In this document: piece after piece, positions 8,242-53,724 of the stretch
How positions within the stretch are numbered: the stretch's first letter is position 1
Layout: every line of letters begins with the position of its first letter
From: a virus
Virus record (IMG/VR): IMGVR_UViG_3300043434_000266
Location: 1-64,000 of that record
Length of the DNA: 64,000 nucleotides
Direction: 5' to 3' (one strand)
Translations under genes and position numbers: made by a program
Notes under the pieces: model-generated
What the model saw: only the letters and a program-made list of their open reading frames with translations
What the model was told of the DNA's origin: nothing
The model's database searches: none

Positions 8242-10854
8242 ATGCTTAGAAGAGTAAAAGTAAAAAGCTTACCTAGAGCAAAAAATGGAGGAGTTAGTTA
8301 TAATCAACTAGCTCCTATGTTTATACCTAATGAAAATGGAAATCAACGTACACAAGTACGTGATACATTAACTAGTGTACCTAGAGAAGAAGCAAATCTA
8401 GAAGCTGAAGGTGGTGAAACAGCATTAGTTCCTAATGTTGGTGGATTACCTGCGCACTATAAAATTAAAGGTAACAGACACACTAGTGGTGGTGTACCAT
8501 TGAATCTTCCTAATGAGTCATTTATATTTAGTGATACTAAAGCAATGATCATTAAGGATCCAGATGTACTTGCTGAGTTTGGTGAAACTAAACCAATGAC
8601 CCCTGCAAAGATTGCTAAGAAGTATGATATAAATAAATATCGTGAAATCTTAGCTGATCCTGATATGGATAGACGCAGTAAAGAAACTGCGGAGAAAATG
8701 ATCTCTAACTATAATGTAAAATTAGGTAAGCTTGCTACATATCAAGAATCAATGAAAGGTTTTGATGGTGGTATTCCTACTGTATCAATGCCTTATTTAG
8801 AGAGTAGTGGAATTAATCCACAAGACTTGTTACCATTACAACCACAGCAACAATCACCTCAACAAGAAATGTTAGAAGGTGAGATGTATGCTGAACAGAA
8901 TCCTACTGAAGAACAGTTTGAAGCTGAGCAAGAATTACCTGAAGCACAGTTTGGTGGTGGTCGTTTAGGAAGACGTATTAGAGAATTCTTTAATGGTAGT
9001 AGACAATTTGATCCTACTACTGGTATCTATATGAATACAGATGCTCAAGGAAGAGTATTCTATGTAGATGGTAGAGGTGTTCAAATGCCTGGTAATATTA
9101 CATTACCTCAAGGATTCATGTCACCAGGAACAGTAGTTGGAAACAATCAACCTACAGGTACTTCTAACACTACAACTACTACAAAAACTAAAACTGTTAC
9201 TAAGAGTACTGCTAGTAAAGCAAAAGTTGACGAATCAAAAGTTAAGAAAGCTGATGATCCTAATCTTAAAGTAGGTGACTACTACAGAGATTCTGAAGGT
9301 AAACTTAGAAAGGTTACTAAGGTAGGTTATTCTAAAACACCTATTGGTACAACTTACTCAGGTCCAGAAGATTACAAAGCTACTTACAACGATCTTGAAG
9401 GGGATGTTGCTCAAGCAAATGCGCTCATGGAAGATCTTGCAAAAGATGGACTTGCTGAAAAAACTGATAAAGGTTGGATTATTTATGCTGGTGCAAAAGA
9501 TAAACTTGATATACAAGATAAAGACTTTTTAACTAGAGTAGCTTCTTATAATAAAGCTGCAGGATTAAAAGAACTTGGCGCACCTGGATTTAGTATTGCT
9601 TCACAATCACAGTATAAAGATAATAAGAAGGAAGAAAAAGTTGATAGTGGTTTCTACGGTTTTGCTGATCCAGAAATGCTAGAACTTAGATACTGGCAAG
9701 CAACAAATCCTAAAGGTACTTACGAGGACTTTAAGAAAATGGATGATGCTGCTAAAGTTCAGAATCGTAAAGGAATGTTATCTTTATATGGGTATGATGT
9801 TGAGAAGCTAGGAGATGTGGTAAACGATCCTGCTAAACTATATACTAAAGAATTCGTTACAGATCCTAAATCAGGTCTCGCTGCTAGAAATGAAGTAACA
9901 TTTAAAGGTGACAAAGCTAAAACATATAGAAGTGCTGATGACGCTAAGATTGGTTTAGATCACTTGGATGCTTATAGTTTAGCACCTGAATATGGTAATG
10001 AGTTAATAGATGAAACAGAAGATGCTGAGGATATAGAAACTAATACATTAGAAGATACTTACGCTGGTGATCAAGATACACCATATTGGAAACAAGATGT
10101 TGTTAGAATGGCAGGTGCATTTGGAGATCTTAATAGAATCAAGAAGTATACTCCTTGGTCACCTAAGTTAGCACCTTATATTCCAGATCCTACATTTTAC
10201 GATCCTACTAGAGAACTTGCTGCTATCAATGAACAGATGGCAATTGGTTCACAAGGTGCTGGAGCATTTGCACCTGCACAAGCATACAACGCACGTCAAG
10301 CAGAGATGCAAGCACAAGGTGCTAAATCTGTAGCAGATGTATTAGGTCGTTATAATAACTTGAATGTTGGAGCAGCTAATCAGTTTGAATTAACTAAAGC
10401 AAATGTTTTAAATCAAACTGGAGCAGCAAATGCTGATATATCAAAAACTTTATATGATCAGATGGTGACTGCAAATCAGCAATATGATAACTCTAAAGCG
10501 CAAGCTCGTCAAGAACTTCGTCAATCTTATATTGATGCAATTACAAACCGTGCACAAGCACAAGCATTGAATGAGACATATGGTGACCATTATATGGTAG
10601 ATCCTGCATCTGGTGGTTATGTAAACTTTACAGGAAAAACTAAAGATCTTGAACCTAGTAATCCTTATGATCAACAAATGGCGAGTGCGTTCAGAGATCT
10701 TAAAAATCAGTTCCCTGATGTTGATGATAATGTATTAATAAAGTTAATGGGTAAAGATCAAACACCTAACTTTGCAGATGATTATATGAAGGCGATGGCG
10801 AGCATGTACCCCGCACAAACTGGTGCAGGATATGGTGCTAATTATCAAAGTTAA
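8242..10854 (+). CDS. Gly-Gly-motif virion/cargo protein (870 aa)
   Basis: The N-terminus (RRVKVKSLPRAKNGGVSYNQ) resembles the C-terminal tail of the first gene (NGGSVRKVKIKRAPRK). A conserved-looking module follows at about 50-150: GGETALVPN, HTSGGVPLNLP, then EFGETKPMTPAKIAKKYDI. The region from about 180 to 235 is Gln/Glu-rich, and a Thr/Lys-rich linker (about 305-335) leads to a mixed globular region. The C-terminal part (from about 650) is Ala/Gln-rich and predicted helical. No enzymatic motif is seen. Gene order before the RNA polymerase block matches the place of internal or portal-associated cargo proteins in crAss-like phages. Function is inferred from context only. Confidence 0.75.
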   Translation: MLRRVKVKSLPRAKNGGVSYNQLAPMFIPNENGNQRTQVRDTLTSVPREEANLEAEGGETALVPNVGGLPAHYKIKGNRHTSGGVPLNLPNESFIFSDTKAMIIKDPDVLAEFGETKPMTPAKIAKKYDINKYREILADPDMDRRSKETAEKMISNYNVKLGKLATYQESMKGFDGGIPTVSMPYLESSGINPQDLLPLQPQQQSPQQEMLEGEMYAEQNPTEEQFEAEQELPEAQFGGGRLGRRIREFFNGSRQFDPTTGIYMNTDAQGRVFYVDGRGVQMPGNITLPQGFMSPGTVVGNNQPTGTSNTTTTTKTKTVTKSTASKAKVDESKVKKADDPNLKVGDYYRDSEGKLRKVTKVGYSKTPIGTTYSGPEDYKATYNDLEGDVAQANALMEDLAKDGLAEKTDKGWIIYAGAKDKLDIQDKDFLTRVASYNKAAGLKELGAPGFSIASQSQYKDNKKEEKVDSGFYGFADPEMLELRYWQATNPKGTYEDFKKMDDAAKVQNRKGMLSLYGYDVEKLGDVVNDPAKLYTKEFVTDPKSGLAARNEVTFKGDKAKTYRSADDAKIGLDHLDAYSLAPEYGNELIDETEDAEDIETNTLEDTYAGDQDTPYWKQDVVRMAGAFGDLNRIKKYTPWSPKLAPYIPDPTFYDPTRELAAINEQMAIGSQGAGAFAPAQAYNARQAEMQAQGAKSVADVLGRYNNLNVGAANQFELTKANVLNQTGAANADISKTLYDQMVTANQQYDNSKAQARQELRQSYIDAITNRAQAQALNETYGDHYMVDPASGGYVNFTGKTKDLEPSNPYDQQMASAFRDLKNQFPDVDDNVLIKLMGKDQTPNFADDYMKAMASMYPAQTGAGYGANYQS

Positions 10855-46575: not shown

Positions 46576-47544
46576 TTACAGGGTTACTTTATTTACAATG
46601 TAATCATAAGGTAGATCATACCTTCTATTAGTATAATGGAATTCAGCTTTCTTTATTACCTCGTCTAAGTTCCAGATCCAGCTATGCAATGTAGCAGCAC
46701 AAACAGGAAACGCGAATACCTGTTGGTACTTATCAATAACTATGAAATTAAATCTGATGTCTTTGACATTAGGGTACTTTGCTTGTATCAACTTGTAATA
46801 CATAGCAGCCTGCATCCAATACTTGTAATAGTCTACAGTTTCTCTAAACTCACTAATGGTCTTACCAGTAGTTTTAAAGTCGTTAATAGTGACACTATTA
46901 GTTTCAGGATCGTAAACATAGTTGTCTATGATACCTTTTAAACCAAAACCATACTTAGTATCAGCTTCAAGTGCAACTTCACTGTGACTGTTAGAACCAC
47001 CTAACTGCAGTAAACATGTAACTGATTCATTACTAAGGATGATTTCAACGTATCCTTTAAGTTTATCATAGGTCTCTTGGTCTATAACAGTCTTCGATCC
47101 CTTTGATTTGAGAAACTCATAATAAGAAATATTCTCTGCAGTGAGTATTTTATCTACACGTTGTTGGTCAGTCTTAAGACTTTGGTGTAGATTAATCTCT
47201 CTTAGAATATCAAGTATGATTGCCTCATGTGTGGACAAAGATAATGCTTCGCACCCATCTTGGCAAGATAGAGCATACACTTTGTCAATAACTTTCTTTG
47301 CATTGTCCCCAGGTAGACTGTTTGGAGATACTACGAATAGATCATCAAACTTCTCCTGTTCTAATAGTAAACAATGAAGAGCTCGACCCTCAACTAAATG
47401 AGAGTCAAGCCTATCTTCACGTTCACCAAGTATGTAATGTTTATAAAAAGTGTTCGGTACAAACATTAGTTTGTTCAGACTGCTGTAGCTGAACTGAAAC
47501 TTCTTGCTGTAGAACCTCTCCTCCGCTTGGAAATCCGTCATCAT
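46576..47544 (-). CDS. PD-(D/E)XK (Cas4/RecB-type) nuclease (322 aa)
   Basis: The N-terminal FSYSSLNKLMFVPNTFYKHY matches the helix that opens Cas4/RecB-type domains, and H57 sits in VEGRALHCLLLE. The active site is D207 (GIIDNY) and D222-F-K224 (TINDFKTTGK), followed by a helix with Q245 in MQAAMYYK. It probably acts as an exonuclease in recombination or DNA end processing, alongside the Sak4-like ATPase. The start must be at 47544 or 47541 to keep the first helix, so the gene overlaps the next one upstream by about 100 bases in another frame. That overlap is unusual but real. Confidence 0.85.
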   Translation of the reverse strand: MMTDFQAEERFYSKKFQFSYSSLNKLMFVPNTFYKHYILGEREDRLDSHLVEGRALHCLLLEQEKFDDLFVVSPNSLPGDNAKKVIDKVYALSCQDGCEALSLSTHEAIILDILREINLHQSLKTDQQRVDKILTAENISYYEFLKSKGSKTVIDQETYDKLKGYVEIILSNESVTCLLQLGGSNSHSEVALEADTKYGFGLKGIIDNYVYDPETNSVTINDFKTTGKTISEFRETVDYYKYWMQAAMYYKLIQAKYPNVKDIRFNFIVIDKYQQVFAFPVCAATLHSWIWNLDEVIKKAEFHYTNRRYDLPYDYIVNKVTL

Positions 47545-48604
47545 CTGTTTTTAATTTTGATTGTAATTTTTTCATTGCCTCATCTGTGAATCTATAACTA
47601 GTAAAAGTTATGTTATCACTACTAGCACTAAACTCTTCAGCACCCAACTCATACAAGAAATCAATAGTATCTTGAGTAACAGCATCTTTGTCTATAACAG
47701 TTCTAAAGATATCATCATAATTCGTACGTAGTTGATACCTCATGTTACTACCTAAGTAGTTAATAAAACCTTTGAAAGCTACAGTCTTACGAACTGAGTT
47801 ATCCCACATAGTTCTATTGTGTCTACGGCATAGTTCTAAGATATATACTAAACTCTTTTGATAGTTACAGTTAGCAATGATGGTCATAGCTACAGTATGA
47901 TTACTATTATCAGTACTCTTAAACATAGCATCTAAAGATTCAAAAGCTTCTCTATCAATAATAGATTCACCCATCAAGTCTAGTATAACTTGCTGATCAT
48001 ATACATTACCGTTACCACTAACTACATTCTGAAATAGCTCATTGTTATCTAAATCTACTTTCTTAATAATAGCTAAACTACTAGTAAACTCAAAGAATCT
48101 TTCTGACCAACCACTTATCGTAAAATATTTTCTGTCAATAGCACTAATCATTGGGTTTCTAATAGAATCCTTTATATAACAATGTGTAATATTATTAATA
48201 TCAACAGGGTGTACAAAAGCATTTTTCTGAATACCCACATTATCAAAACCTTTGATCATACTACCGATCTCAAAAGGAATCATATCAACAAAGTACTTAG
48301 CATTAGTAATAACTACATCAGCTTTGCTTTGATCTCTTGTAACTTTCATGTTGTGCTTATCTAAGAGACTTTTAAGTTTCTCCCTAGATACATCACACTT
48401 AGCTGTAAAGAAAATAGTTTTTACATTAGTCAAGTCCAGCTTTTTATCAGCCGTAAACTTTTTATACTCTTGTCTCATATAGTTTTGAAAACCCCAATAT
48501 CTATCGTGGTCTACAACTTGTACATCTTGAGTATCTACACTGTGAATCATACCATTCTGAATATCTATATCATTCAGAATCTTTATTGTCTTGTACTTGA
48601 ACAT
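47441..48604 (-). CDS. MoxR-cassette paralogue A, BRCT-like region plus shared segment (387 aa)
   Basis: Residues about 60-103 (NVKTIFFTAKCDVSREKLKS, then KADVVITNAKYF) have the strand-helix-strand pattern of a BRCT domain. Residues 217-262 (FESLDAMFKSTDNSNHTVAM, then KSLVYILELCRRH) are homologous to the next protein and to the 165 aa protein at 52099-52596. It is the last of the five-gene MoxR/VWA cassette in transcription order. It overlaps the gene before it by 35 bases and the nuclease gene after it by 104. It could be an adaptor or substrate-recognition partner of the ATPase. That is an inference; no enzyme motif is present. Confidence 0.65.
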   Translation of the reverse strand: MFKYKTIKILNDIDIQNGMIHSVDTQDVQVVDHDRYWGFQNYMRQEYKKFTADKKLDLTNVKTIFFTAKCDVSREKLKSLLDKHNMKVTRDQSKADVVITNAKYFVDMIPFEIGSMIKGFDNVGIQKNAFVHPVDINNITHCYIKDSIRNPMISAIDRKYFTISGWSERFFEFTSSLAIIKKVDLDNNELFQNVVSGNGNVYDQQVILDLMGESIIDREAFESLDAMFKSTDNSNHTVAMTIIANCNYQKSLVYILELCRRHNRTMWDNSVRKTVAFKGFINYLGSNMRYQLRTNYDDIFRTVIDKDAVTQDTIDFLYELGAEEFSASSDNITFTSYRFTDEAMKKLQSKLKTDDDGFPSGGEVLQQEVSVQLQQSEQTNVCTEHFL

Positions 48605-49742
48605 AAGTTAAATTGTGTTTTTTTGCGTATTCTTCAAAGGTATCTTTAGCAGTAACTTGTATGTTTAATATATCAGATCTGTCATCAAACCTACGGTCAA
48701 CATCATCTATAGTACCTATAAGAATCTTTGACATGATATCATTATAAAGTTCTTCAGTTACCTGATCTCTCTTTGTAAGAAGAGATAAGATCTCTATGCT
48801 ATTGCAGTTATACAATATATGTACATCATTAGTGTCTATGAACAATCTACCTTCCTTTAGTCTCCTGTTTTCACTATTAGTAATATGATAATAGTGTTTC
48901 TTAACAAGCTTATATAGAAGATACATAGACTTACTACAGTCAGTGTTAAATAAAATTTTAGATGCTGTAAGACTATCCTCATCAGATGGACTACTATACA
49001 TCATATCTAATGCATCAAACATCTGCTCATCCAAAGCAACTTGATCAGAACACGTAGCAATAAAATGCTCTTGTGTAATAACCGGTAACTTTTTAGATAG
49101 GATATTGTATACAAGTTCAACACCTTCTGCTGTCATCAAGTATCCTGTCTTCTTTTCATTAACAGTAGAGGCGTAAGTAGATTGATTAAACTCATATATC
49201 AAAGCACCAGATATAAGTATGTTATCTGTAGGTCCTATCTTAGTCTCAGGTTCTACATCAAAAGTCACGAATGTATTCTTGTTCTTAATGAAATTAATAG
49301 TAGTTTCATCATAACCTAGAACTTTATAATCACCTTTAGAAGCAAAGCATGCGTCTGGAATCTGATACTTGTATGCATCATAGTCTCCATTCTCAAGCAT
49401 GTTCTTTTCTGTACCTAGTACACATGTTGCTTTCTCTATATCTGTTACAATAGATATGTCTTTTGATCTACAATATTCCTTGATTTTATAACCAGGAATT
49501 TTAGAGTCGGGAAGTACGTATAACTTATCTCCTGCAGTAGGGGTAAAGGTATCACTCCCCTTAAGGAGTGACACCATTTTACCAAAACTAGCTTCTGATA
49601 TTACACATACATCCGCAACCTCTATAGGACTAGTATATGTACCTGGTGTTAGCATGTACACATACTTACCTACCATCTCAACAAATCTTAGTTTGTTAGG
49701 AATAGTAGGATCACTAAAAGGTTTATGGATGTTTCTTTGCAT
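48570..49742 (-). CDS. MoxR-cassette paralogue B, BRCT-like region plus shared segment (390 aa)
   Basis: It has the same layout as paralogue A: a BRCT-like region at about 71-111 (GDKLYVLPDSKIPGYKIKEY, then KATCVLGTEKNML) and the shared segment at 237-283 (MFDALDMMYSSPSDEDSLTA, then KSMYLLYKLVKKH). Length is nearly identical (390 against 387). A strand-rich part around 150-215 lies between. The start overlaps the AAA+ stop by one base. It seems to be a tandem duplicate that diverged early. Function unknown; gene order makes it a likely partner of the AAA+ ATPase. Confidence 0.65.
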   Translation of the reverse strand: MQRNIHKPFSDPTIPNKLRFVEMVGKYVYMLTPGTYTSPIEVADVCVISEASFGKMVSLLKGSDTFTPTAGDKLYVLPDSKIPGYKIKEYCRSKDISIVTDIEKATCVLGTEKNMLENGDYDAYKYQIPDACFASKGDYKVLGYDETTINFIKNKNTFVTFDVEPETKIGPTDNILISGALIYEFNQSTYASTVNEKKTGYLMTAEGVELVYNILSKKLPVITQEHFIATCSDQVALDEQMFDALDMMYSSPSDEDSLTASKILFNTDCSKSMYLLYKLVKKHYYHITNSENRRLKEGRLFIDTNDVHILYNCNSIEILSLLTKRDQVTEELYNDIMSKILIGTIDDVDRRFDDRSDILNIQVTAKDTFEEYAKKHNLTYVQVQDNKDSE

Positions 49743-50929
49743 TACTTTACAGTCATTTTAATAACCTCGGGGTTGAGCATGAGCTTGGAAAATTTACCTT
49801 TGTTACCATTAAGGATACCCTTAACCATGTAATACTTAAGATCATTACTGAAGATATCATCAGTAATCAAATTAGTAATACGGTCAATCATACCTTGGGT
49901 TACCGTGTTGTTATTTGCATAGTGTACTGCGTAGTTGATAACACGAGTGGTCATCAAGCTAGCAATGTCAGCACGGTAGTTATTACCCTCACCAACACAA
50001 GACTTAAGTTGTCCCTTGATATATTCCCAACTATTGTTAGTCAATACATCTTTAGGAGTTACCAACTTATCCAACTTGTTGTTAATGAACATAGTAAACA
50101 TAGTAGCAAACTCACCACCTACAGAACCTTCACCAATCATCTGGATAATAGGAAGACTTTCTTCAAAGCTTTCTAAACTAGAGATAGAGTTAAAGAATGT
50201 AGTAAAGCTACGCGCATTAGCACGCTTCTCTGTCAACTCTGGGTGCAACAACATAAAGTTAATACAACGAGTATCTATCTCATTCTCCTCTGCCCAACGT
50301 GCCCAGCACTCAAGATCAAACTTCAAATAGCTTGTAATAAAGCGAGTCTTCTGAGCCTCATCCAAAGATGTTACTTGATAGTCACCATTATCAGGATTAC
50401 TAGTTAAGATAACTGTCCATCCTTTTGGTAGTTTCCATGATACATACTCCTGACGGTCAATGATCTCCATAGTAGCTTGCATGAACCTAGCATCTGCACG
50501 AGTATAGTCATCAAGAATTAAGAGACCGTTCTCTCCCTTACCTTGAATCCATTCTGGTGCAGCATGTGTCATACGCTTTTCTCCAGTAGGTACATACTTC
50601 TGTTGGATATACATTGGCATAACGTTCTCAGGAATCCACTTCGTAACCTTCTGTCCGTCATCTGTAGTCTTAGTAACCTGAAATTCTTTAATAGGAAAAC
50701 CTACTAAGTCACCCAACTCCTCGAGCTGACTCAAAGACAACTTTACATAATCCATGTTGTGGTCCTTTGTGAACTGCAGAATAGTAGTAGTCTTACCAAT
50801 ACCTGCTTCACCCTCAATATTTACAGCTACAGGAATCTTACCATTCTCCTGTAGATACTTATTATTATTTACAACGTGAGATACAAACTGCTTTAACTCA
50901 TCTGTGTTTAATTGTACTTGCTTAGCCAT
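49742..50929 (-). CDS. MoxR-type AAA+ ATPase (395 aa)
   Basis: Walker A is G40-E-A-G-I-G-K-T (NIEGEAGIGKTT), Walker B is LLILDD (136-141), and a sensor-1 Asn lies in ILTSNPD (N178). The AAA_5/MoxR group fits. Family members act with VWA proteins as remodelling chaperones. Here a VWA protein precedes it in the transcript with 13 bases between, and paralogue B follows with a one-base overlap. The arginine finger likely lies in the QKTRF segment after sensor 1. The natural substrate is unknown; possibilities are phage capsid or tail parts, or host proteins. Confidence 0.9.
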   Translation of the reverse strand: MAKQVQLNTDELKQFVSHVVNNNKYLQENGKIPVAVNIEGEAGIGKTTTILQFTKDHNMDYVKLSLSQLEELGDLVGFPIKEFQVTKTTDDGQKVTKWIPENVMPMYIQQKYVPTGEKRMTHAAPEWIQGKGENGLLILDDYTRADARFMQATMEIIDRQEYVSWKLPKGWTVILTSNPDNGDYQVTSLDEAQKTRFITSYLKFDLECWARWAEENEIDTRCINFMLLHPELTEKRANARSFTTFFNSISSLESFEESLPIIQMIGEGSVGGEFATMFTMFINNKLDKLVTPKDVLTNNSWEYIKGQLKSCVGEGNNYRADIASLMTTRVINYAVHYANNNTVTQGMIDRITNLITDDIFSNDLKYYMVKGILNGNKGKFSKLMLNPEVIKMTVK

Positions 50930-50942
50930 TTTCTTTAATTTT

Positions 50943-52133
50943 TTAATTCAACTTGATTTGTGGTCCCGGAAGACTACTGTTAATTTCACCACGGGTAGAT
51001 ATTACCCACAACATTTTACCTCTCGGTTTTACATCTGTGTGACATTCACCATCTGTTAGATAGAACATACACGTATACTTTCTTGTATTCTCATTGTAAT
51101 ACTCTAGAACTGGATCAAAGTCAGTACCTCCACGACCGTGTAACACGATGTCTTGGTTAGGTTTGAACTTCTCAATACTTCTAATAGTAGTATCACACTG
51201 TAAGACGGTTACTTCACTACCAGTTTTATGTATGTGATGTATCTCATTAAGGAACTCCTTAACTTCCTTATCACTTACAGAACCACTAGTATCTATAGCA
51301 ACCAACAAGTGTCTCTTGTTTTTAATCTTGAGACCAGGATTTTCATCAAACCTTCTGTTTTCTTTACGTCTTAGTTTCTTAGTAAAGATCTCACTAGATC
51401 CTCCTGCAAATCTTCTAACATAACTACGCCAGTCAAACTTTGGAGGTTCAACATGTCTAAGTCTTTGAATAATACCTTGGAACTCTCCGGGAATAGTACC
51501 CCTAGATTTTTCTACAGTTTCTGCAATCTCTTTAAGAATGTGTGCTGTCTGTGATTCAAGCAATTTCTTTTCTGCTTCAGACAAATCTTCAAAATCTTTC
51601 CATGTACCGTGATCAGGATTAATAGTGCCGTCGCCATGTGCTTCACCTTCACCCATACCAGCCATGTCAGATATCTTACCACCATTACCAGACTGTTGTT
51701 CTTCTTCCATAGCTTTCATCAAGAGTTTGTAATACTCCCGACAACCTGCTTTAGGTGGTAGATTATATTCCGAGAATGACTCTAGAGTACATCCTCCGTC
51801 TGGTAAATCTTCTGCATCAATGAACTGATTAATCTCAATGTCCATAGCAATATTTGCTACTCTCTTATTTTGAAATTCATCTTGACATTGAATATGGAAG
51901 AAACCAATATGCAATAACTCGTGCTTAAGTAAACCTCTCTTGTGATTATCACTGAGAGAGTTCCAAAAGTCTTCATTAATAGTAAGCTGAAAGTTCACTC
52001 CATTCTTACTCACACCAGCGGTGGGGACTCTCTTGTCCCACACCTTATTTAAGCTGAGTATAAGTAAACCATAGAATGGTTCTTTAAGCATTAGTTCTTT
52101 ACTGACCTTCGCCAGTGAATCTTGTTTTGTCAT
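50943..52133 (-). CDS. Metallopeptidase-like + VWA protein, MoxR partner (396 aa)
   Basis: The N-terminal part matches the DUF2201 putative metallopeptidase domain: H71-E-L-L-H75 in LLKHELLHIGFFH, with AMDIEIN after it. The C-terminal VWA domain has the MIDAS motif D281-T-S283-G-S285 (VAIDTSGSVSD) plus GGTDFDP and YLTDGE. A Gly/Gln-rich, likely disordered linker (about 143-175) joins them. VWA proteins of this kind pair with MoxR ATPases, and the ATPase gene follows directly. The HExxH suggests possible proteolysis, but DUF2201 activity is not established. The start overlaps paralogue C by 35 bases. Confidence 0.85.
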   Translation of the reverse strand: MTKQDSLAKVSKELMLKEPFYGLLILSLNKVWDKRVPTAGVSKNGVNFQLTINEDFWNSLSDNHKRGLLKHELLHIGFFHIQCQDEFQNKRVANIAMDIEINQFIDAEDLPDGGCTLESFSEYNLPPKAGCREYYKLLMKAMEEEQQSGNGGKISDMAGMGEGEAHGDGTINPDHGTWKDFEDLSEAEKKLLESQTAHILKEIAETVEKSRGTIPGEFQGIIQRLRHVEPPKFDWRSYVRRFAGGSSEIFTKKLRRKENRRFDENPGLKIKNKRHLLVAIDTSGSVSDKEVKEFLNEIHHIHKTGSEVTVLQCDTTIRSIEKFKPNQDIVLHGRGGTDFDPVLEYYNENTRKYTCMFYLTDGECHTDVKPRGKMLWVISTRGEINSSLPGPQIKLN

Positions 52134-52596
52134 GTGGTACTAGTTTTAAGTCCATGCTTTTTACAAATGTGAAACCCCATTGTAGAAGGTGATCCTTCAA
52201 TGCATCTGCAAATCTTCCTAAGAAGAAGTTCATAGCAACAGCATCAGTATTTATTCTGGTAAGTTCTTCGTACATTGAGTTGTAGTTTAACTTATCAGCT
52301 TGATTAGTACATGTTTGTATCATAGTTCTAATCTCATGATTAAAACTACATGACCCTACATCTGTAACAGCCTCACCAAACAACTCTGTTCTAAAAGGAT
52401 TATTATCTCTTTTTAGTTTTGCTTCTGCATCTTTTGCAAGCAACAAGATATATGGAGCATTCTTTTGAAAATCTACAGCTTCAATAATACTAACAGCAAC
52501 TTGTACATTATCCCTATCAGGACTACATAACATATCAAGCACTCTGTCATACGTGGAATCATTGAGGATAATAACCTCATCTAAAGTTTTAGTCAT
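52099..52596 (-). CDS. MoxR-cassette paralogue C, shared segment only (165 aa)
   Basis: Residues 13-56 (DSTYDRVLDMLCSPDRDNVQ, then FQKNAPYILLLAKDAE) align with the shared segment of the 387 and 390 aa proteins; the BRCT-like region is missing. The rest is helical with FRTELFGEAVTDVG and a MNFFLGRFADALKDHLLQWG stretch. It is the first gene of the cassette in transcription order, overlapping the VWA gene by 35 bases and the DUF6915-like gene upstream by 8. Domain loss or a compact ancestor are both possible. Function unknown. Confidence 0.65.
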   Translation of the reverse strand: MTKTLDEVIILNDSTYDRVLDMLCSPDRDNVQVAVSIIEAVDFQKNAPYILLLAKDAEAKLKRDNNPFRTELFGEAVTDVGSCSFNHEIRTMIQTCTNQADKLNYNSMYEELTRINTDAVAMNFFLGRFADALKDHLLQWGFTFVKSMDLKLVPHDKTRFTGEGQ

Positions 52597-52936
52597 CTAT
52601 TTTCATTGTTTTAATCATCCATAGAGGATGTTCGTTAGACTTCATTGCGAGTATCCACTCTTTTGCTGAGGGTATGTAGTTATTACAATCCTCTTTTACA
52701 TGTTGTTCACCTACATAGCGAACCATTACTTTTTTACCTACTGAGTTTGTGAAGTATTCACCGAATATACTTTCTGCTTCGAATATACCTTCTGAATGAT
52801 GTCTAAACATACGGTGATCAGAATGACCAACCCATCCTTTAGTAGCATCAAACCAGTTATGAATATGTGAGTACTCTGATGGATGACCTCCCCACTTCTT
52901 TGCACTAGAACGTGCATGATCATAAGGATGTGCCAT
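52589..52936 (-). CDS. DUF6915-like protein (115 aa)
   Basis: The sequence MAHPYDHARSSAKKWGGHPS, then HNWFDATKGWVGHSDHRMFRHHSEGIF, GEQHVKEDCN and IPSAKEW strongly resembles a small His/Trp-rich family known as DUF6915, found in phages and bacteria. The many His residues may bind a metal. No activity is known. It overlaps paralogue C by 8 bases, so it is probably translated with the MoxR cassette, and the gene before it ends 1 base away. Confidence 0.65.
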   Translation of the reverse strand: MAHPYDHARSSAKKWGGHPSEYSHIHNWFDATKGWVGHSDHRMFRHHSEGIFEAESIFGEYFTNSVGKKVMVRYVGEQHVKEDCNNYIPSAKEWILAMKSNEHPLWMIKTMKIDD

Positions 52937-52937
52937 A

Positions 52938-53297
52938 CTAGTTTATGTCATCTATATCAAGTGTTCCATCTTGAAATGCTTCTCTAGCTTCCATTACATA
53001 ACCATGAACATCATACTCTAAAGTATTAATATCAAAATAAACAGTACCACTACCGCCATCATTGTTATACCAGTCATAGTCGTATTTAGTACTTAAGATT
53101 TCATACATAAAGTTTTCTACACGGTCATGAAAATCACCAAGGTCTATATGATCACCTTCAGTATTCTCAGCATATACAGTATCTATAGCACCGGAGTCAC
53201 CTCCCCCACTATACTCGGCAACTAGTTTCTCAACACCTAAATCTTTTAGTCCAGAGAAGAACATTGCTTTATCTAGATCATCATTAAATATACTCAT
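52938..53297 (-). CDS. DUF6878-like acidic protein (119 aa)
   Basis: This small acidic protein has EYSGGGDSGAIDTV and a WYNNDGGSGTVYFDINT segment, a pattern like the DUF6878 family. That resemblance is from memory and moderate. The acidic C-terminus ends DIDDIN. Close spacing (1 base to the next gene, 4 to the previous one) makes it part of the same message. Function unknown. Confidence 0.55.
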   Translation of the reverse strand: MSIFNDDLDKAMFFSGLKDLGVEKLVAEYSGGGDSGAIDTVYAENTEGDHIDLGDFHDRVENFMYEILSTKYDYDWYNNDGGSGTVYFDINTLEYDVHGYVMEAREAFQDGTLDIDDIN

Positions 53298-53301
53298 ACA
53301 A

Positions 53302-53724
53302 TTAATATTTTTGTTTATAAAAACGTCCTAGGATATTACCATTCAGATAGAAGTCTGATTCTAGTACACCCTTGACAAACTGATACTTGGTTTCCATGTA
53401 TGTTAGTTCTGTTTTAGAATAACATATGTGTAAGATGTTCCTCTTAATAGGAACTTTATCTTTGTGAGCTTGCTTAAGTACTACGTTACTACTAAAGTAG
53501 TTCTCGTAATTTAACTTAGAAGTCTTCACGTAATTCTTTTTACGCTTATCTACAGGTGCGTTCTTCTTTGCAAGTTTCTTTTTGGTAACTAATGCAAAGT
53601 TCTTTTTACCTATATAAGCCACAGACTTACCGTCTATGATTGCTGTCATTTCATATATGAAACCAACAGCACCTTCAGGTATCATCTCAGGTGTAAATAC
53701 TACACCTTTATAAATCCAACTCAT
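53302..53724 (-). CDS. GIY-YIG-like nuclease candidate (140 aa)
   Basis: The pattern G21-F-I-Y24 and 13 residues later Y37-I-G39 (GFIYEMTAIIDGKSVAYIGK) matches the two strands that open the GIY-YIG fold. A basic stretch follows (KKKLAKKNAPVDKRKKNYVK). E112 in TYMETKYQFV could be the acidic metal ligand. Such proteins cut DNA, as homing endonucleases or in repair. The gene overlaps the primase start by 4 bases, which argues for a replication role over a selfish one. The call is motif-level. Confidence 0.5.
   Translation of the reverse strand: MSWIYKGVVFTPEMIPEGAVGFIYEMTAIIDGKSVAYIGKKNFALVTKKKLAKKNAPVDKRKKNYVKTSKLNYENYFSSNVVLKQAHKDKVPIKRNILHICYSKTELTYMETKYQFVKGVLESDFYLNGNILGRFYKQKY

Follow-up and report, generated by a model that had tools for sequence, protein, structure and literature searches.

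The window examined here, a stretch of 64,000 nucleotides (nt) forming part of the 78,990-base virus record IMGVR_UViG_3300043434_000266, carries on its minus strand a cassette in which the genes for a MoxR-like AAA+ ATPase and a zincin metallopeptidase-vWA protein (the VWA protein) are flanked by those for three related partner proteins of 165, 390 and 387 amino acids (aa), p165, p390 and p387, which share a domain that we call S. The gene order is conserved in relatives, the partners change rapidly around a constant core, and the cassette lies within a block of genes that moves between phages as a unit. We consider the chances about even that it encodes a three-part machine for protein remodelling (or proteolysis) with exchangeable adaptors. 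The minus-strand genes of the window run head to tail from primase to polymerase, with the cassette between the primase and a PDDEXK exonuclease and on the strand opposite to the giant proteins. An earlier note on this stretch had described five genes here, and their coordinates on the minus strand (Table 1) and their joins hold: in transcription order, a 35-nt overlap, a 13-nt gap, a 1-nt overlap and a 35-nt overlap. As p387 additionally overlaps the exonuclease gene that follows it by 104 nt, the gene run extends past these five genes.

In BLASTP comparisons, p387 matched p390 at 5e-7 and p165 at 1e-5, with p165 against p390 giving 0.96. For profile comparison, relatives were gathered via the VWA protein and the ATPase, their S proteins were sorted by position, and the resulting profiles were compared with no member in common: the p165 group matched the p387 group at 1e-10 and the p390 group at 2.7e-8, and the p390 and p387 groups matched each other at 4.6e-17 across 280 columns, covering the greater part of both. 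Against profiles of unrelated genes, eight controls all gave 0.08 or worse, ruling out chance or an alignment artefact behind the likeness. Because member-disjoint profiles match while the controls do not, the kinship of the partners is real, and the segment that the earlier note had seen in all three proteins is borne out by independent profiles. Judged from these alignments, p390 and p387 are homologous from end to end, and p165 corresponds to their C-terminal S domain and little else. A search of the 79-kb record with p387 returned only p387 itself, p390 (5.8e-6) and p165 (7.8e-4). No family for any of the three was found in Pfam, PHROGs, NCBIfam or PADLOC, and no match at E 0.1 came from a tblastn search of 50,697 phage records with three long partners; one PHROGs candidate for p387 (phrog_4388, 0.0011) was too weak and was not used.

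A tree of 87 long partners, rooted at its midpoint by assumption, separates a p387 clade (type I, support 0.91) from a p390 clade (type II, support 0.98). Genomes with a single long partner keep either type, 27 falling in the p387 clade and 9 in the p390 clade, so that either long partner may replace the other. This suggests that the long partners are ancient paralogues with overlapping roles, most simply read as the products of an old duplication after which one or the other copy was lost. The earlier suggestion that the partners may be rival subunits gains support from this alternation between the long proteins.

Across 103 unique complete cassettes the genes run from primase through S, VWA, ATPase and then one or two S genes to the exonuclease, mostly overlapping or spaced by at most about 10 nt, and the five-gene order is thus conserved in relatives. 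An S gene lies downstream of the core pair in 103/103 and upstream of the VWA gene in 96/103; paralogous partners flanking one MoxR/VWA pair, as first noted, are therefore both real and conserved. Since the first relatives had been gathered through the VWA protein and ATPase, a separate S-only search was added: all 74 new S-holding loci carry the ATPase and 71 of them the VWA gene, this search being the best 80 matches, so that remote S proteins elsewhere are still possible. Ten long relatives (102-126 kb) have 2-3 S matches each, clustered together. In two contigs (L105:9081-9999 and L145:9074-9983) we observed two S-type genes upstream of the VWA gene, giving four S proteins per cassette.

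The VWA protein, described earlier as a HELLH and VWA protein, passes the curated Pfam cut-offs for DUF2201_N (62 versus 23.2 bits) and DUF2201 (77.1 versus 26.4 bits) and holds HELLH at residues 71-75, a metal ion-dependent adhesion site (MIDAS) motif DTSGS at 281 and TDGE at 360; HExxH and MIDAS are both present in 146/146 unique relatives, and zincin-vWA proteins of this kind were found in 383 phage records. The ATPase exhibits Walker A GEAGIGKT and Walker B LILDD, with Walker A kept in 126 and the Walker B DD in all 127 of 127 unique relatives, unlike the ATPases of AR9, phiFa and XC38, in which Walker B has DE. Its scores against the MoxR-type Pfam models AAA_3 and AAA_5 (18.9 and 13.2 bits) lie under the curated cut-off, and a search of genome contigs with the ATPase returned no relative. 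In one relative, the VWA protein and ATPase are fused in frame (786 aa; L206:2593-4953), which we treat as supporting evidence only because a lone contig could hold a sequencing error.

Both long partners had been said to share a BRCT-like region, which lies in their N-terminal part. A BRCT-like fold is suggested there but not proven, and we keep the name BRCT-like rather than BRCT: the hints from structure, profile and Pfam agree, but none is significant. The AlphaFold2 (AF2) model of p390 (predicted local distance difference test score 88) is alpha/beta in its N-terminal half and helical in its C-terminal half, and that of p387 (score 79) resembles it at lower confidence. In Foldseek, the highest-probability matches of p387 are BRCT domains (PARP1, 0.98 and 0.94), but with E-values of 0.06 and 0.26, and unrelated proteins fall among them in the ranking by E-value. 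The PARP1 BRCT domain also ranks first for the p390-family profile against PDB sequences (E 0.18), whilst Pfam BRCT and BRCT_2 match weakly in relatives, in at most two members per model. The p387 profile also matched the endoglucanase 6kdd (0.0014). For the p390 model no significant fold match was found in the PDB; over roughly its whole length it matches the predicted structures of three proteins, all uncharacterised and unannotated and two of them in one virus (CrAss-like virus sp. ctYsL76, Podoviridae sp. ctz6O13; Foldseek 3e-8, 3e-7 and 1e-5).

Among near relatives, identity is 87-94% for the ATPase, 83-89% for the VWA protein and 81-85% for the exonuclease, compared with only 36-46% for p387/p390; p119 and p165 are likewise fast evolving. 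The ratio of non-synonymous to synonymous divergence (dN/dS) is 0.34-0.75 for p387/p390 versus 0.07-0.17 for the ATPase (window or L006 against their near relatives). Because the ratio for p387/p390 stays below 1, positive selection over the whole gene is unsupported, and fast change of the partners under weaker constraint fits equally well. The DUF6878 protein p119 was itself among the fastest genes, with dN/dS of up to 0.83 in one pair.

The block from about SegE (to about position 53724) through the exonuclease passes from phage to phage in one piece. Recent common cassettes occur in otherwise divergent phages, as in the pairs L009/L150, L001/L006 and L092/L124: for L009/L150, synonymous divergence (dS) is 0.04-0.19 from SegE to the exonuclease and above 1.1 outside. 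We counted 27 such pairs; they are non-independent and probably go back to about six events. Switches peak at primase|SegE, SegE|p119, p119|p115 and exonuclease|p188 and are rare within the block. As pairs were picked by low ATPase divergence, which biases towards low values near the ATPase, more weight falls on the sharp edges of the block than on the low values in its middle. For p165, scores cover only 72 pairs. Smaller exchanges also occur: the window, L009 and L150 have one p119-p115-p165 allele in common (dS about 0.2-0.4) while the remaining cassette differs, so this sub-block reassorts. The position of the SegE-type GIY-YIG endonuclease at the block edge suggests that it is a possible homing-like driver of cassette spread.

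How such a machine might work can be outlined from what is reported for the MoxR family, in which the vWA domain holds a client whose conformation MoxR alters, and third components define the system types (PMC7159879). The MoxR-like ATPase would form a ring and drive the zincin-vWA subunit, which would grip and perhaps cut the client protein. The S domain would be the common part that docks on this core, with the small S protein as a near-constant subunit. The long proteins would be adaptors that alternate with each other, and their N-terminal parts, the BRCT-like region and the linker, would select the client. Clients might be, for example, host proteins or host defence encountered early in infection or replication, and the substrate may be a phage or host replication protein. 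Fast-changing adaptors on an unchanging core, together with exchange of the whole block from phage to phage, make it probable that the clients vary. We hold as a tentative extension that this is a portable machine, in which swapping of S adaptors by recombination around a constant MoxR/zincin-vWA core alters the set of host proteins that it unfolds or cuts. In favour of the adaptor machine are the tight linkage of S to the core genes, the conserved order, the intact motifs of the core, the VWA-ATPase fusion, the alternation of the long partners, their fast change beside a slow core, and the transfer as a block. Several observations weigh against it. All three partner regions vary, beyond the putative client-binding part. 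Between the window and L009/L150, p165 is 88-89% identical and p390/p387 only 36-38%, and because their alleles reassort in this way the small and long partners need no matching. Seven of the 103 cassettes have no detectable upstream S gene, and linkage and co-transfer are also compatible with mere co-regulation. The Walker B DD in place of the usual DE makes the rate of hydrolysis by the ATPase uncertain, and the match to a BRCT-like fold is without significance.

N4-like phages and AR9 package RNA polymerases. That the machine instead serves virion assembly or maturation, including the folding or processing of giant virion RNA polymerase proteins, with the S proteins as assembly factors, is an explanation that we consider unlikely. 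In its favour, the pair is present in AR9 and, as gp24/gp25, among the core genes of N4-like phages (PMC4193335), it lies near virion genes in cyanophage S-TIM5, and Iyer et al. (2021, PMC7824862) propose virion assembly for the jumbo-phage MoxR/metallopeptidase-vWA pair, citing tail assembly in an archaeal virus. The place of the cassette between primase and exonuclease, opposite in strand to the giant proteins, argues otherwise, as do the transfer of the block without structural genes and the fact that the pair also adjoins helicase and polymerase genes in N4-like relatives.

The rapid divergence and allele exchange of the partners and p119, together with swapping of the block between otherwise divergent phages, would also be expected if the machine inactivated an immune or restriction complex of the host, with the partners diverging in an arms race. 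Relaxed constraint could equally yield fast change, however, known defence-system models give no meaningful match, and conservation across many phages resembles a core function; we thus regard counter-defence, too, as improbable, if somewhat plausible. Least probable to us is that the long partners act on their own in replication or recombination, as a BRCT-like module working with the adjacent PDDEXK exonuclease, and share only the operon with the MoxR pair. The overlap of p387 with the exonuclease gene, the inclusion of the exonuclease in the block and the BRCT-like fold hints are consistent with this, but the small S protein upstream of the VWA gene has the same domain, no S gene was seen without an ATPase among the best 80 matches of the S-only search, and the crAss001 stretches examined have the exonuclease but neither S nor the MoxR pair.

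Table 1. Minus-strand genes of the cassette and of the block that travels with it (positions within the window).
Feature	Position	Strand	Evidence
PDDEXK / exonuclease VIII-like nuclease; final gene of co-moving block	46576..47544	-	Pfam PF12705 4.5e-9; phrog_412 1.3e-24
p387: long partner, type I; BRCT-like region, linker, S domain	47441..48604	-	S-profile 6e-28; tree clade I
p390: long partner, type II; BRCT-like region, linker, S domain	48570..49742	-	S-profile 6.2e-17; tree clade II
MoxR-like AAA+ ATPase, Walker B DD not DE	49742..50929	-	phrog_1297 4.6e-34
Zincin metallopeptidase + vWA protein (DUF2201_N + DUF2201)	50943..52133	-	Pfam
p165: small partner, S domain near N terminus	52099..52596	-	S-profile match 1.2e-18
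p115, DUF6915; travels with block	52589..52936	-	Pfam PF21866 2.7e-38; dS tracks cassette
p119, DUF6878; travels with block, fast evolving	52938..53297	-	Pfam PF21798 2.1e-10
SegE-type GIY-YIG endonuclease, primase-side block edge	53302..53724	-	Pfam PF19835 3.2e-19; breakpoints around it

Existing annotation gives two of these genes other names: phrog_1314 in PHROGs calls the zincin-vWA family 'HNH endonuclease', a name repeated in many phage records, and no HNH domain was found in the VWA protein by Pfam; phrog_447 likewise calls the GIY-YIG protein 'NAD synthetase'.

The phages carrying the cassette belong to the crAss-like group and are uncultured. The gene blocks of the window agree with the published crAss-like layout (PMC7886860), and its 3597-aa protein contains GGDFDIDK, in which DFDID is the DxDxD motif of the giant transcription protein; the structural match of p390 to a protein of CrAss-like virus ctYsL76 points the same way. 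The capsid protein of crAss001 matches 7/10 relatives (1e-9 to 3e-6), a result for the relatives only and not for the 79-kb record, which may be partial and without structural genes. In the crAss001 stretches examined, hidden Markov models for the ATPase, the VWA protein and S gave no match, while the exonuclease is retained; phi14:2 was compared through its annotation only. The place of the cassette between primase and PDDEXK exonuclease is occupied in crAss001 by gp75-gp79 (L241:20583-25805), with a ThiF protein (8e-16), a JAB-like protein (5e-4, under the cut-off) and gp79, whose N terminus is ubiquitin-like by eye: the set recalls a ubiquitin-type conjugation cassette.

The earlier note had taken repeated partners around a phage MoxR/VWA pair to be undescribed, which stands for the S family and the transferable phage cassette, no description of either being found in the literature searched (most subscription papers lie outside it), but not for the pair or for the principle of a dedicated third component. 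For tailed phages, we found no demonstrated client or adaptor of the MoxR/zincin-vWA pair, and a conserved partner family in small, long and alternative forms offers a concrete handle for finding the client; if the proposal is true, a constant core with variable adaptors and block transfer would clearly exemplify how recombination can retarget such a machine in an abundant phage group. N4-like phages (gp24/gp25, PMC4193335) and AR9 (g028/g029) carry the ATPase and zincin-vWA pair as here, and in AR9 the proteins that come after it have a C-terminal segment in common (E 1e-16), with a third further on (L162:6241-8085, 8869-10098). Control windows from two crAss-like phages contained any paralogue pair in 5/54 cases and three paralogues in 0/54, so repeated partners may recur around these machines, although numbers are small. 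Paralogue trios were also observed near the VWA gene in Thermus phage phiFa (L163:9070-12348) and Vibrio phage phiKT1024 (L250:6318-7355). The S profile gave no match among the neighbours of the pair in AD45-P1, AR9, phiFa, MTATph1 and XC38. The jumbo-phage pair (PMC7824862) resembles the present one in its ATPase/zincin-vWA pairing, domains and motifs, but the available part of that account describes no S-domain third component and proposes virion assembly, whereas the genes here lie in a replication block. Bacterial MoxR-vWA ternary systems (Kaur et al. 2020, PMC7159879) likewise have a dedicated, fast-evolving third component and conserved order; theirs are VMAP, iSTAND, FtsH or beta-propeller proteins, for which no Pfam match was found in p387, p390 or p165, nor among the relatives' matches listed. 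Unlike in those systems, the vWA protein here has a zincin domain and no C-terminal effectors, and is encoded by a phage rather than its host. The core pair in phages and the ternary MoxR-vWA arrangement in bacteria are both already known.

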